64,000 nt of DNA, from assembly GCA_011171075.1 (NCBI GenBank), contig DUFD01000002.1:1-64000 (forward strand), given 5' to 3'. A program made the translations under genes and the position numbers. Every line of letters starts with the position of its first letter. Within the stretch, counting starts at the first letter, position 1. A model generated the notes under the pieces. That model was not told where the DNA came from and did not search any database. It saw nothing but the letters and a program-made list of their open reading frames with translations. This document shows positions 42,580 through 47,837 of the stretch, in pieces. Origin of the DNA: Dehalococcoidia bacterium (lineage in GTDB: Bacteria > Chloroflexota > Dehalococcoidia > Dehalococcoidales > Fen-1064).

Positions 42580-43215
42580 CTACTCCACATAGTCTACCAC
42601 GACCTCTTTGATGTCCCAGAGCGTGTCCAGTTTCTCGTGTATCTCCTGCTTGATGGCAGAGGCAAACTGGTGACCGGACGGCAGGTCAACTTTAATCCGC
42701 ACCACTCCATCTTTAACCTTAATATCCTGCACCAGTTTGGCACGCACCAGACCTAACCCTGTCAAAGGGTCCATCACCTTCCTGAGCCGCTGCTGTACTA
42801 TCTCTACGGTTGTCGGCTTCTTTTCCTTGACCAGACCGTGCTTTTCCTCATAGTTCTGTATGGCGGAACGCAGTCCCTCTACCGCCAGCACCGAGCAGTG
42901 GGCTTTGATGGGTGGCAGCCCGCCCAGGGCATCTGAGGCCTGCTTCCAGGTGATTTTCTTGGCCTCGTCTAACGTTTTACCTTTAGCCAGCTCCGTGATA
43001 ATCGAGCCAGTGGCGATGTTGGAGGCACAGCCATATGACTCAAACTTAACATCGGAGATAGTTTTGGTGGCTTCGTCTACGCTTATGTAAACCGATACCA
43101 TATCGCCACAGGCCGGACTACCTTCGGTCGACTTGCCATCCGGGTTATCTATTTTCCCAACATTACGCGGGTGCCGGAAGTGCTCCATTACTGTCTCATT
43201 ATAAGGTGACCTCAT
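42580..43215 (-). CDS. NifU/IscU N-terminal scaffold fused to a MIP18/DUF59-like C-terminal domain
   Basis: YNETVMEHFRHPRNVGKIDNPDGKSTEGSPACGDMV...KFESYGCASNIATGSIITEL; C-term VQQRLRKVMDPLTGLGLVRAKLVQDIKVKDGVVRIKVDLPSG. Confidence 0.88.
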   Translation of the reverse strand: MRSPYNETVMEHFRHPRNVGKIDNPDGKSTEGSPACGDMVSVYISVDEATKTISDVKFESYGCASNIATGSIITELAKGKTLDEAKKITWKQASDALGGLPPIKAHCSVLAVEGLRSAIQNYEEKHGLVKEKKPTTVEIVQQRLRKVMDPLTGLGLVRAKLVQDIKVKDGVVRIKVDLPSGHQFASAIKQEIHEKLDTLWDIKEVVVDYVE

Positions 43216-43229
43216 CTCTGGCCCTCCTC

Positions 43230-44402
43230 TTAGTCGTTTTCCTTTCCCAGCGGGCTGATGCTCCTCAGCTCCGATACAATCTCAGCAAGGGCATCAACCA
43301 CGGCATCGGCATCCTCCATGGTGTTGTAACGCCCCAGACTGAAGCGAATCGACCCGTGTGCCCGCTCGTGGTCACCCCCGATGCCGTAGATAACGTGGCT
43401 CCCTTCCAGAGAACGACTGAAACAGGCGGAACCGGTGCTGACAGCAATGCCACGCATATCCAGGTGCAATGTAATCGACTCTCCCTCGACAAAATGGAAA
43501 GTGATATTGGCGTTCTGGGGCAAACGCTGTGTACGGTGACCGTTCAGCGTAGAGTTTGGTATTTCCGCAAGTGCCCGCTCAATGATGTGTTCGCGTATTT
43601 CCTGCAATTTATCCGTCTCTTCAGGGGCGACAATCTCTACCGCCCGGGCAAAGCCGACCGCGCCGGGGATATTCTCCAGTCCGGCACGCAGGTTGAACTC
43701 CTGGAAGCCGCCATCCATCCACTTGGTAATTGGAGTCCCCTTGCGAATATACAGTCCACCGATACCCTTGGGGCCGTGAATGGTATGAGCAGCTACTGTC
43801 ACCAGGTTTACCGGTACTTTACTCGCATCGAGGGGCACCCTCGTGTAGGTATGGGTGGCATCGGTATGGAAGACTACCCCTTTCTCCCGGCAGACCTTAC
43901 CGATACCTTCGATGTCCTGTATGGTGCCTATTTCCTGATTGGCGTGCTGGACTGATACCAGTATCGTTTCGTCGGTTATGGCTTCCCTGAGCTTATCAGG
44001 ACTGACCAGGCCATCTCCGCCTACTTCCAGGAGCGTAACCCTGAAACCCTGTTTTTCAAGGGCCTGGGCACTGTGGATTACCGGGAAGTCCTCTATTCGG
44101 GACACTATAATATGCTTGCCCTTCTTCTCTCCCAGCGCCAGCGCCACTCCCTTGATAGCCATGTTCGAGGACTCGGTCGACCCCGAGGTGAAGACGAACT
44201 CCTCAGGCGAGGCACCCAGCGCTTTCGACAGGGTTGCCCTTGCTTCATCCAGTGCATCACGGGCCTCGATACCCAGGGAATAACCGAACTCGGATGTAGC
44301 CACGGCATACGTATCAAAGAAATATGGCTGCATTGCCTCCAGCACACGCTCGTCCATCCGGGTGGCAGCCGCATTATCAAGGTAGATAGTCCTGTCCGCC
44401 AT
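43230..44402 (-). CDS. Cysteine desulfurase family protein (second copy)
   Basis: IYLDNAAATRMDERVLEAMQPYF, AAHTIHGPKGIGGLYIRKG, VSTGSACFSRSLEGSHVIYGIGG. Confidence 0.95.
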   Translation of the reverse strand: MADRTIYLDNAAATRMDERVLEAMQPYFFDTYAVATSEFGYSLGIEARDALDEARATLSKALGASPEEFVFTSGSTESSNMAIKGVALALGEKKGKHIIVSRIEDFPVIHSAQALEKQGFRVTLLEVGGDGLVSPDKLREAITDETILVSVQHANQEIGTIQDIEGIGKVCREKGVVFHTDATHTYTRVPLDASKVPVNLVTVAAHTIHGPKGIGGLYIRKGTPITKWMDGGFQEFNLRAGLENIPGAVGFARAVEIVAPEETDKLQEIREHIIERALAEIPNSTLNGHRTQRLPQNANITFHFVEGESITLHLDMRGIAVSTGSACFSRSLEGSHVIYGIGGDHERAHGSIRFSLGRYNTMEDADAVVDALAEIVSELRSISPLGKEND

Positions 44403-44424
44403 GCTGTCCTCCTCTATTTCAGGA

Positions 44425-44862
44425 CTAAATAAACAGGGTTATTGCCGATTCCCTGGCCTCATTCACGTAGGTACCGACAGCACAGTAATCGGATATCAGG
44501 TCATCCCGGAGGTCCTCTTTCTTGATGCCCATTATCTCCATCGTCATGTCGCATGCAAGGATTTTACCGCCCATTTCCACGAAGTCGCTCAGCATCCTCT
44601 CCAGAGAGGCCACTTTGGCCGCCTTCATTTTCCGCGTCACCATCCACTTGCCAAGCCCGAGCATGTTCATCTTGGAAAGAGGGCCCTTGTCCAGGCCACC
44701 TTTTTTAAGACGCTGGAGACCCCAGAAGGTAAAAAAGATGGAGGCTTCCATACCCATGGCGAGCGCTCCGTTAGCCACGATGAGGGCGCTGTATATCTTG
44801 TCCATATCACCGCTGTGAGCAATGATAGTAGCCTTGTTCTTCCCGTTGTCAGCCATATCCAT
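44425..44862 (-). CDS. DsrE/DsrF-like (DsrE2) family protein
   Basis: KATIIAHSGDMDKIYSALIVANGALAMGMEASIFFTFWGLQRLKKGG...GGKILACDMTMEIMGIKKEDL. Confidence 0.88.
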   Translation of the reverse strand: MDMADNGKNKATIIAHSGDMDKIYSALIVANGALAMGMEASIFFTFWGLQRLKKGGLDKGPLSKMNMLGLGKWMVTRKMKAAKVASLERMLSDFVEMGGKILACDMTMEIMGIKKEDLRDDLISDYCAVGTYVNEARESAITLFI

Positions 44863-44871
44863 CGCCTCCGG

Positions 44872-45093
44872 CTATTTACGTATCCTGATTCGCCAGGTGT
44901 CCCCTTCTTCAGTCTGCTCAACCAGCTCTAGGCCCAACGCCTTTACCGCCATCGGTATCTCTTTCTTAGAGGCAGGATGTGTGCCAATTACCTCAATGAT
45001 GTCACCCGCTGCTGCCTTCCGCAACGCTTTACGGGTCTCAACCAGTGGTACCGGGCAGGTTTCACCCGTACAATCGACCTTTATTTCAGCCAT
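44872..45093 (-). CDS. tusA: TusA family sulfurtransferase
   Basis: MAEIKVDCTGETCPVPLVETRKALRKAAAGDIIEVIGTHPASKKEIPMAVKALG (CPxP motif). Confidence 0.93.
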   Translation of the reverse strand: MAEIKVDCTGETCPVPLVETRKALRKAAAGDIIEVIGTHPASKKEIPMAVKALGLELVEQTEEGDTWRIRIRK

Positions 45094-45384
45094 TAAGTCA
45101 TGTCCCCCGATTTGGTCTACGTAGAATACTCCAGATATAAAGCCTTGTCAAAATAAGGGCCGGCAAGCGGTCAGGTCTATCCTGCTTCCACCCAGCAACT
45201 CACCGCACGCCTCGCCCACCGGCCAACGTAATTTTATCCTTATCATCTATCATAAGTATGTGACTAATGTCTCTTATTAATTCACTCAGATATGTAATGG
45301 TAGCGAATGTAGTCTCGCTGTGCTATAATGTACCTTTAATAACCTCTCTGGAGGCATTTGGAAGCGACAGAAAGGGGGCACTAC

Positions 45385-45498
45385 ATGGCAACAGCAGCTT
45401 CAACACTACCAGAAACCTCCATACTTGCCAGACGTATCGAAAGGACGATGCTGATGCCATGGCTAATGTGCTGCCCGAAAGGGCAATCGGGTGAATAA
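45385..45498 (+). CDS. Putative 37-aa small ORF / Met-Cys-rich leader peptide
   Basis: AAAGGGGGCACTAC-ATG; MATAASTLPETSILARRIERTMLMPWLMCCPKGQSGE; ends 25 nt before the DUF39 gene; below the length cut-off of the supplied ORF track. Confidence 0.4.
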   Translation: MATAASTLPETSILARRIERTMLMPWLMCCPKGQSGE

Positions 45499-45522
45499 TA
45501 TGCAGTATGAGAGGTTAAAAAT

Positions 45523-46731
45523 ATGGCGAAAACAATCGCTGAGATAAACGATAGAATAAGCAAAGGCCAGGCAGTGGTGGTCACTGCCGAAGAAATAATA
45601 GACATTGTTACAGAAAAGGGCGCGGAGGAGGCAGCCCGTGAGGTGGATGTTGTTACCACCGGTACCTTCGGCCCCATGTGTTCCTCTGGCGCCTTTCTCA
45701 ATGTTGGTCATACCAAGCCACGAATCAAGCTGGGTGGCGGCGAAGTCTACCTGAATGACGTACCGGCATATACCGGCATTGCAGCAGTAGACCTGTTCAT
45801 TGGTGCAACAGCCGTTCCAGATGATGACCCCCGAAACAAAGCATACCCCGGCGACTTTAACTATGGCGGCGGGCACGTCATCGAAGAACTGGTAGCCGGT
45901 AACGATATCAGGCTGACGGCCAGGGCATACGGGACTGATTGCTACCCCCGCAGGAGATTAGAGACCTGGATTAATATTGCCGACATCAATGAGGCGACAC
46001 TGTTTAACATCCGTAACGCTTATCAGAACTACAACGTGGCCGTAAACCTGTCCGACAGGACAATCTATACCTACATGGGTGTTCTCAAGCCGCACCTGGG
46101 CAATGCCAATTACTCCACTTCCGGGCAGCTGTCTCCACTGTTCAACGACCCCCTTTACAAGACACTGGGCATAGGGACGAAGATTCTGCTCGGGGGCGGT
46201 ATCGGCTATATCGCCTGGCATGGCACCCAGCATAATCCTGCTGCTCCCAGGTTAGACAATGACGTGCCACGTCGACCAGCGGGAACGCTGGCGGTCATAG
46301 GCGACCTCAAGCAGATGAAACCAGAGTGGCTCAGGGGAACGAGCATGCTCGGATACGGCACCACCATAACGGTGTGCATCGGTGTTCCGATACCGATACT
46401 TAATGAAGAAATCGTGCGCTACACAGCGGTGAGAGACAGGGATATCGTAGCCGCTATCGTCGACTATTCCGATGTTTATCCTCAGGGAAAACCTGATGTT
46501 CTCGGTGAAATTGACTACGCCAGCCTGAAGTCGGGTCAGATAACCGTTCAGGGCCAGGAGGTGCCTACCGCATCTCTGTCCAGCTACCCGAAAGCAGTAG
46601 AAATAGCCAATCTCCTTAAGAAATGGATAAAGGCCGGAGAGTTCCTGCTTACCGAACCGGTGGCGCCGCTGCCCGGTGTAGAGTCGGGAATCAGGTTCAA
46701 GAATCTGGAGGACCGCCCGATAAACGGCTAG
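45523..46731 (+). CDS. Homocysteine biosynthesis protein (DUF39 family)
   Basis: KTIAEINDRISKGQAVVVTAEEIIDIV...VDVVTTGTFGPMCSSGAFLNVGHTKPRIKLGGGEVYLNDVPAYTGIAAVDLFIGAT. Confidence 0.93.
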   Translation: MAKTIAEINDRISKGQAVVVTAEEIIDIVTEKGAEEAAREVDVVTTGTFGPMCSSGAFLNVGHTKPRIKLGGGEVYLNDVPAYTGIAAVDLFIGATAVPDDDPRNKAYPGDFNYGGGHVIEELVAGNDIRLTARAYGTDCYPRRRLETWINIADINEATLFNIRNAYQNYNVAVNLSDRTIYTYMGVLKPHLGNANYSTSGQLSPLFNDPLYKTLGIGTKILLGGGIGYIAWHGTQHNPAAPRLDNDVPRRPAGTLAVIGDLKQMKPEWLRGTSMLGYGTTITVCIGVPIPILNEEIVRYTAVRDRDIVAAIVDYSDVYPQGKPDVLGEIDYASLKSGQITVQGQEVPTASLSSYPKAVEIANLLKKWIKAGEFLLTEPVAPLPGVESGIRFKNLEDRPING

Positions 46732-46834: not shown

Positions 46835-46851
46835 ATAGAAAATTGAATATT

Positions 46852-46934
46852 GACTGGGGGAGCTGAAAGGCTGAGAGTCCCATGGGGACGACCCTTGGAA
46901 CCTGATCTCGGTAATGCGAGCGTAGGGAAGTAAG
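46852..46934 (+). ncRNA. TPP riboswitch (THI element)
   Basis: CTGGGGGAGC..GGCTGAGAG..ACCCTTGGAACCTGATCTCGGTAATGCGAGCGTAGGGAAGTAA, matches conserved THI-box core. Confidence 0.96.
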
Positions 46935-46935
46935 G

Positions 46936-46975
46936 AACCAGAAGGCCTCGTCACACTTCCCACTTCTGGTTTTTT
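46936..46975 (+). terminator. Riboswitch expression-platform terminator
   Basis: AACCAGAAG / CTTCTGGTT stem followed by TTTTAATT. Confidence 0.85.
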
Positions 46976-47063: not shown

Positions 47064-47837
47064 GTGGATGATGTAATTATTTCGAAAGCAATCACGCAGA
47101 GCTTCACAGATGAGTTTATGAATTATCTGGACGTAGACGTGGCCATCGCTGGTGCTGGCCCTTCCGGCCTAACGGCCGGGTATTACCTGGCCAGGAAAGG
47201 CATTAAGACCGTAATCTACGAAAGGAAACTTAGCATCGGTGGTGGAATGTGGGGAGGCGGCATGATGTTTAACCGTATCGTGGTTCAGGACGAGGCCAGG
47301 CCCATTCTGGATGAGATGGGAGTGGCTACCGTGGAGTATGAGCCAGGCTATTACGTGGCCGATGCCGTGGCGACCGTATCTGCGCTTGGCTACCAGTGTA
47401 TTAAGGCAGGTGCCCGTATCTTCAACTTGGTCAGTGTTGAAGACGTGATGATTCGTGAAGATGACCGCGTGGCAGGACTGGTCCTGAACTGGAGCGCCGT
47501 AGGTATGGCGAATTTACACGTCGACCCGCTTTCAATGAAGTCTAGGTTTGTGATAGACGCTACCGGCCACGATGCTGAGGTATGCCGTATTGTAGCGCGA
47601 AAAATAGGTGCCAGGCTGAATACCTCCACCGGTGAAGTGGTAGGCGAAAAACCGATGTGGGCCGAGCATGGAGAGAGAGACCTGGTGGCCAAGGTCGGAG
47701 AGGTCTATCCTGGCCTGCTGGCGAGCGGCATGGCAGTCAACGCAGTATATGGATATCCTCGTATGGGCCCAATCTTTGGTGGTATGCTCATCTCAGGTAA
47801 ACAGGTAGCGGAACTAACGGCCGAATTGTTAAAATAA
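47064..47837 (+). CDS. thi4: Thiamine thiazole synthase, Thi4 family
   Basis: VAIAGAGPSGLTAGYYLARKGIKTVIYERKLSIGGGMWGGGMMFNRIVVQDEARPILDEMGV...LHVDPLSMKSRFVIDATGHDAEV; preceded by TPP riboswitch. Confidence 0.95.
   Translation: MDDVIISKAITQSFTDEFMNYLDVDVAIAGAGPSGLTAGYYLARKGIKTVIYERKLSIGGGMWGGGMMFNRIVVQDEARPILDEMGVATVEYEPGYYVADAVATVSALGYQCIKAGARIFNLVSVEDVMIREDDRVAGLVLNWSAVGMANLHVDPLSMKSRFVIDATGHDAEVCRIVARKIGARLNTSTGEVVGEKPMWAEHGERDLVAKVGEVYPGLLASGMAVNAVYGYPRMGPIFGGMLISGKQVAELTAELLK

Follow-up and report, generated by a model that had tools for sequence, protein, structure and literature searches.

Methionine genes are controlled by SAM riboswitches, T-boxes and repressors. Leaders of leuA and ileS in Actinobacteria were proposed as translational attenuators, and no conserved RNA structure or control was found for the methionine operons of these bacteria (PMC1262725). 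Outside Proteobacteria and Actinobacteria, amino-acid leader peptides were treated as new and were known only from the authors' own His case in bacilli (PMC2965389). The polycysteine uORFs of mycobacteria are leaderless frames with contiguous Cys codons (Canestrari et al. 2020, via PMC9031893). A description of a methionine leader-peptide attenuator was not found in the literature searched, in which subscription journals were sparsely covered.

The DNA analysed here (the window) was a 64,000-nt stretch from a Dehalococcoidia bacterium (contig DUFD01000002.1, positions 1 to 64,000), in which a short frame precedes an HcyBio (DUF39) gene. We give a little better than even chances to a reading in which the HcyBio mRNA begins with a 5′ leader (45337–45522) that attenuates translation in response to methionine, through the ribosome. 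The short frame belongs to a conserved leader family (type B) which probably lets the ribosome sense methionine supply. The features of the locus, in window coordinates, are listed below.

45324–45329, plus strand: predicted −10 box TATAAT (TGTGCTATAAT), kept in three congeners.
45340–45357, plus strand: 5′ anti-SD, TAACCTCTC (45340–45348) and GGCAT (45353–45357), complementary to the HcyBio RBS; pairing probability >0.9 in G000, G001 and G002, about −18 kcal/mol.
45370–45379, plus strand: Shine-Dalgarno sequence of the uORF, GAAAGGGGGC, kept in congeners.
45385–45498, plus strand: 37-aa uORF of the original prediction, its N-terminal part without protein-level constraint.
45414–45428, plus strand: second anti-RBS segment, inside the uORF (codons 10–15), AACCTCCATACTTGC; duplexes of −18.1, −18.8 and −17.2 kcal/mol.
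45440–45445, plus strand: internal SD AAAGGA of the conserved mini-ORF.
45454–45498, plus strand: conserved mini-ORF, MPWLMCCPKGQSGE, with an alternative in-frame start at 45448; in most lineages an SD and start lie just before the core.
45458–45484, plus strand: type B core, TATGKNYMATGNNNNGCCCGNRAGGGC, 27 nt, with C at the first base in the window; matched by model R2 at 45434–45490 (E 6.4e-13, as a training member).
45466–45476, plus strand: R1, the invariant Met codon (45466–45468) with a segment that in other lineages pairs with the RBS of HcyBio; this pairing is weak in the window.
45473–45484, plus strand: hairpin GCCC-GAAA-GGGC with a GNRA loop.
45509–45517, plus strand: SD of HcyBio, GAGAGGTTA, predicted to be the sequestered site.
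45523–46731, plus strand: HcyBio (DUF39) gene (PF01837, 515.8 bits), the proposed regulated target.

The original prediction was of a 37-aa, Met/Cys-rich uORF with its own Shine-Dalgarno sequence, ending 25 nt before the DUF39 start. The frame was confirmed (ATG at 45385, TAA at 45496–45498, quoted translation exact), as was its Shine-Dalgarno sequence at 45370–45379, and the gap between its stop codon and the HcyBio ATG at 45523 was 24 nt. The cluster MLMPWLMCC, found at 45448 as described, was unique: across six frames of the 64-kb window no other nine-codon stretch held at least three Met and at least two Cys, and shuffled windows gave a mean of 0.15 such stretches each. The TATAAT box was kept in three congeners and its predicted transcript start, near 45337, lay upstream of the uORF, indicating that the uORF should be transcribed. 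Its translation is putative, a Shine-Dalgarno sequence and start codon being present and kept. The 37-aa peptide as such was not conserved. Between congeners the N-terminal 23 codons showed non-synonymous to synonymous codons of 12:5, 14:5 and 6:3, mostly replacements, and are without protein-level constraint; the conserved part was the mini-ORF with its internal SD. The uORF frame in the congeners ran 25 nt into HcyBio, an overlap that would suit coupling.

HcyBio adjoins a divergent sulfur cluster on the minus strand (42580–45093), encoding TusA, a DsrE-like protein, a class V aminotransferase (cysteine-desulfurase-like) and a NifU-like scaffold. Directly after HcyBio, a TPP riboswitch (RF00059, 73 bits) at 46846–46945 precedes a Thi4-family gene at 47064.

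The type B core pattern, searched blind in 84,980 species genomes, gave 17 matches. Fifteen of them sat 63–72 nt before a DUF39/HcyBio start and one, at a contig end, had the same layout; the match in Paraburkholderia was taken as chance. With a covariance model, two further type B cases were found at HcyBio in other families of the class (L152 and L153), and two matches with no DUF39 nearby (L154 and L155) were set aside as chance. The type B leaders collected (n = 25) were all from Dehalococcoidia. The equivalent of the Met codon at 45466–45468 was invariant in 25 of 25, and it was the only internal Met codon strictly conserved, a point against the attenuator reading. In frame 0 the core encodes L-(W/C)-x-M, the L being P in the window. 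Most lineages had an SD and start codon a few codons ahead of the core, frame 0 being the best in 14 of 19; two lineages would need a CTG start.

HcyBio orthologs were then sought in the family and order of the window, and the upstream DNA of 84 was read. Type B leaders preceded 15 and a second kind, type A, preceded 12 (one cut by a contig end); neither was found at the remaining 57, a few of which were truncated by contig ends or interrupted by masked bases. In the window's own family, each of the 11 orthologs found carried one or the other, type B in g1 (the window's genus) and g3, type A in g2 and g4. Leaders that are short and keep a Met codon thus preceded DUF39 in many relatives; the Cys codons of the predicted cluster were not conserved. 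The lack of a leader at 57 of the 84 genes in the order counts against the attenuator reading. By eye, a promoter-like TTGACA...TATTAT lay immediately ahead of the start codon at many of these 57 loci. At L010, L033, L034 and many other HcyBio upstreams of the order, this sequence was so near the start codon that little or no leader would remain on the mRNA. One ortholog (L009, G025:C215) had a single in-frame TAG; the other copy in that genome (G025:C183) was open.

Type A leaders encode a peptide of the form MPN...MMMP(R/W)AW..A(S/G)SG.M, starting with GTG or TTG (ATG in distant copies). A Met run (MMM, M.M or M..MM) was present in all of them; an indel inside the ORF was of 3 nt, and irregular indels occurred only past its stop. 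Before the gene stood an intrinsic terminator, a co-varying stem with four pairs changed on both sides, followed by a T run. The segment GGGCUUGG, just after the Met triplet, could pair as an antiterminator with the 5′ arm of the terminator, CCAAGCCC (96/96 cells; 96 percent over 14 type A sequences), and the ORF start paired with a later ORF segment (95 percent). Type A thus has the anatomy of a classical attenuator: a codon run, a terminator, a competing antiterminator and a target gene for the same amino acid.

Strong type A matches were found at methionine genes only (DUF39, metG and metX). Type A preceded DUF39 in 12 genomes; metG in Dehalococcoidales at L121 (leader 1456–1611; TIGR00398, 416.8 bits, cut-off 336); and metX at L130 (G017:C14:124432-124585, minus strand; NF001209, 490 bits against 331), where the leader was a diverged type A (..ASKMKMGRPWHVTGSDFMRK*) with a terminator. 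Two genomes of another Chloroflexota class also had type A before metG: L157 (TIGR00398, 378 bits) and L158 (leader 1501–1646), attenuator-like leaders with a Met triplet or rich in Met directly upstream of methionyl-tRNA synthetase. In these distant metG copies the stem was re-paired (CCGAGC:GCUCGG) and the antiterminator cells were still paired at 96 percent. The metG of L158 (1654–3126) was split into two frames by a frameshift or an assembly error, and the L157 copy was open. Among the type A model matches below 25 bits, L131 was rejected as lying inside a coding gene, L159 as an ordinary terminator and L160 for its place at the 3′ end of a Clp-like gene. Between the terminator and HcyBio, a second promoter-like TTGACA...TATnnT was seen at L018, L022, L026, L037 and L050; as most DUF39 type A loci had such a sequence, part of the transcription may escape the terminator. 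It was less clear at type A metG loci. In the window's own genome (G000), the covariance model found no type A leader, and no Met leader was seen by eye at metG.

The type B leader differs in its apparent output. No terminator-like stem with a T run was seen by eye in 45385–45522, and in the window the downstream RBS was predicted to be sequestered by leader segments. Among 19 distinct type B leaders, 10 had an R1 complementary to the HcyBio RBS (p ≤ 0.01 against shuffled RBS), with up to 14 consecutive pairs. R1 paired better with its own RBS (−13.4 kcal/mol) than with permuted ones (−11.2 kcal/mol; p = 5e-5), and L090 and L097 had matching changes on both sides. When a ribosome stall was modelled by blocking a footprint at the Met codon, mean RBS accessibility rose from 0.40 to 0.55 (p = 9e-5) in a set of 22 leaders, some of them close relatives, with folding that ignores tertiary structure and with predicted transcript starts. 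Control of translation by RBS sequestration fits about half of the type B lineages directly. In some lineages with a weak R1 (the window's genus and L035), another upstream segment was complementary to the SD. In the window's genus the R1 pairing is weak, and two other segments pair with the HcyBio RBS instead, the 5′ anti-SD and the segment inside the uORF. For the latter, the own duplex was the best among cross-genome pairs in each of three congeners, though both arms differ. A modelled Met stall left the window RBS closed (0.41 to 0.42), and in two congeners accessibility rose modestly (0.23 to 0.40 and 0.42 to 0.53).

On the attenuator reading, a ribosome would start on the short leader frame and soon reach the conserved Met codon at the edge of the RNA switch. 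When Met-tRNA is short it would pause there, the pause would alter the choice of leader segment paired to the HcyBio RBS, and more of the enzyme would be made for homocysteine and hence methionine. Both the pause and the direction of control are steps that we infer. The same applies in the window to how a pause would open the RBS, since this site would there be held by the 5′ anti-SD and the uORF segment and not by the Met-codon region. Since the modelled stall leaves this RBS closed, the mechanism proposed for the window is drawn from relatives, and its direction of control is unproven. Charging of Met-tRNA is the likely signal for both types, as sister lineages have, at the same position before the same gene, two dissimilar leaders that both contain Met codons, and type A is also found at metG and metX.

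Translational coupling without sensing is an unlikely explanation, the strongest of the rivals. Ribosomes reaching the leader end would re-initiate or free the HcyBio RBS from sequestration, and the Met codons would be incidental. Strong sequestration in the window's genus would agree with this, as would a leader stop that in many lineages lies 21–28 nt short of the gene, or a frame that runs 25 or 68 nt into it. Coupling, however, leaves unexplained why a Met codon is invariant, why exactly that region is complementary to the RBS and why sister lineages carry Met-triplet attenuators on DUF39.

Slightly less probable is that a structured RNA element, such as a small riboswitch or a protein site, controls the RBS, with the reading frame incidental. 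The hairpin GCCC-GNRA-GGGC persists despite a one-base shift against the frame (L035) or a stop codon in the loop (L045 and L153), indicating that its conservation is that of an RNA. The two AUGs, and the A that precedes TGG, are invariant at the nucleotide level. Like the Met codon, the +1-frame AUG never varied, and core substitutions had no codon-like pattern in either type B frame, so part of the core conservation is at the RNA level. The +1 frame itself, which would run from the other invariant AUG (MxHALPxRA), was not preferred; its SD spacing was usually ~13 nt and it stops after four codons in L005 and L007. Against an RNA element alone, most lineages have an SD and start codon ahead of the core, the conserved sequence spans only ~27 nt with upstream sequence that could not be aligned, and the Rfam 15 covariance models gave no match at the leader, to a known riboswitch, a T-box or otherwise, at gathering or lax thresholds. 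SAM-I riboswitches, as an alternative control, were not found in G000 and were scattered in relatives.

That the leader senses cysteine or tryptophan in place of methionine is very improbable. The window has two Cys codons, and Trp occupies core codon 2 in most lineages. The residues after the invariant Met, however, vary (CC, RC, RR, RG, RS, RV, HC, AC, LC and PG), the double Cys being limited to the window's genus and one other lineage (L090); thus cysteine is not conserved, and Trp is replaced by Cys in at least six leaders. Type A leaders, moreover, have Met runs and precede metG and metX. The original prediction of stalling on a shortage of Met- or Cys-tRNA is accordingly supported in part: the invariant codon and the type A leaders on DUF39, metG and metX point to methionine as the signal. 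Cysteine was unsupported, since its positions are taken elsewhere by Arg, Ser, Gly, His, Ala, Leu or Pro, and RNA pairing explains the nucleotides found there. A functionless chance ORF is the least credible reading: short ORFs are common in the window and many relatives lack the leader, but the blind scan found the core almost only upstream of DUF39, and the Met/Cys cluster is rare in shuffled windows.

For Chloroflexota as a whole, chances are about equal that Met-specific ribosome-mediated attenuation exists in two forms swapping before DUF39, one transcriptional (MMM and a terminator) and one translational (a Met codon and RBS sequestration), with the transcriptional form also on metG and metX. 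If so, transcriptional and translational attenuators would swap on one gene within one family, and a Met attenuator on the DUF39 pathway would provide, in Dehalococcoidia, a handle on the regulation of this route to homocysteine.

SAM riboswitches and T-boxes would share with these leaders the control of methionine genes at the RNA level; they differ in that nothing in Rfam matches the leader. The polycysteine uORFs of mycobacteria have in common with it a uORF before a sulfur-metabolism gene (PMC9031893); here, in contrast, the frame starts behind an SD, and conservation does not extend to its Cys codons. With the classical leader-peptide transcription attenuators of the trp, his, leu and thr operons, type A shares the codon run, the overlapping antiterminator, the intrinsic terminator and the biosynthesis or tRNA-synthetase gene behind. 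It differs in the amino acid, methionine, and in the phylum, Chloroflexota, whereas the type B leader of the window has no terminator and would act on translation. That leader resembles translational attenuators that sequester the RBS (ermC type) in its short upstream frame, in an RBS predicted to lie in a helix and in a pairing that would be set by ribosome position. Unlike the ermC type, no antibiotic is involved, the Met codon is the proposed stall site, and in half of the lineages the Met-codon region is itself the anti-RBS.
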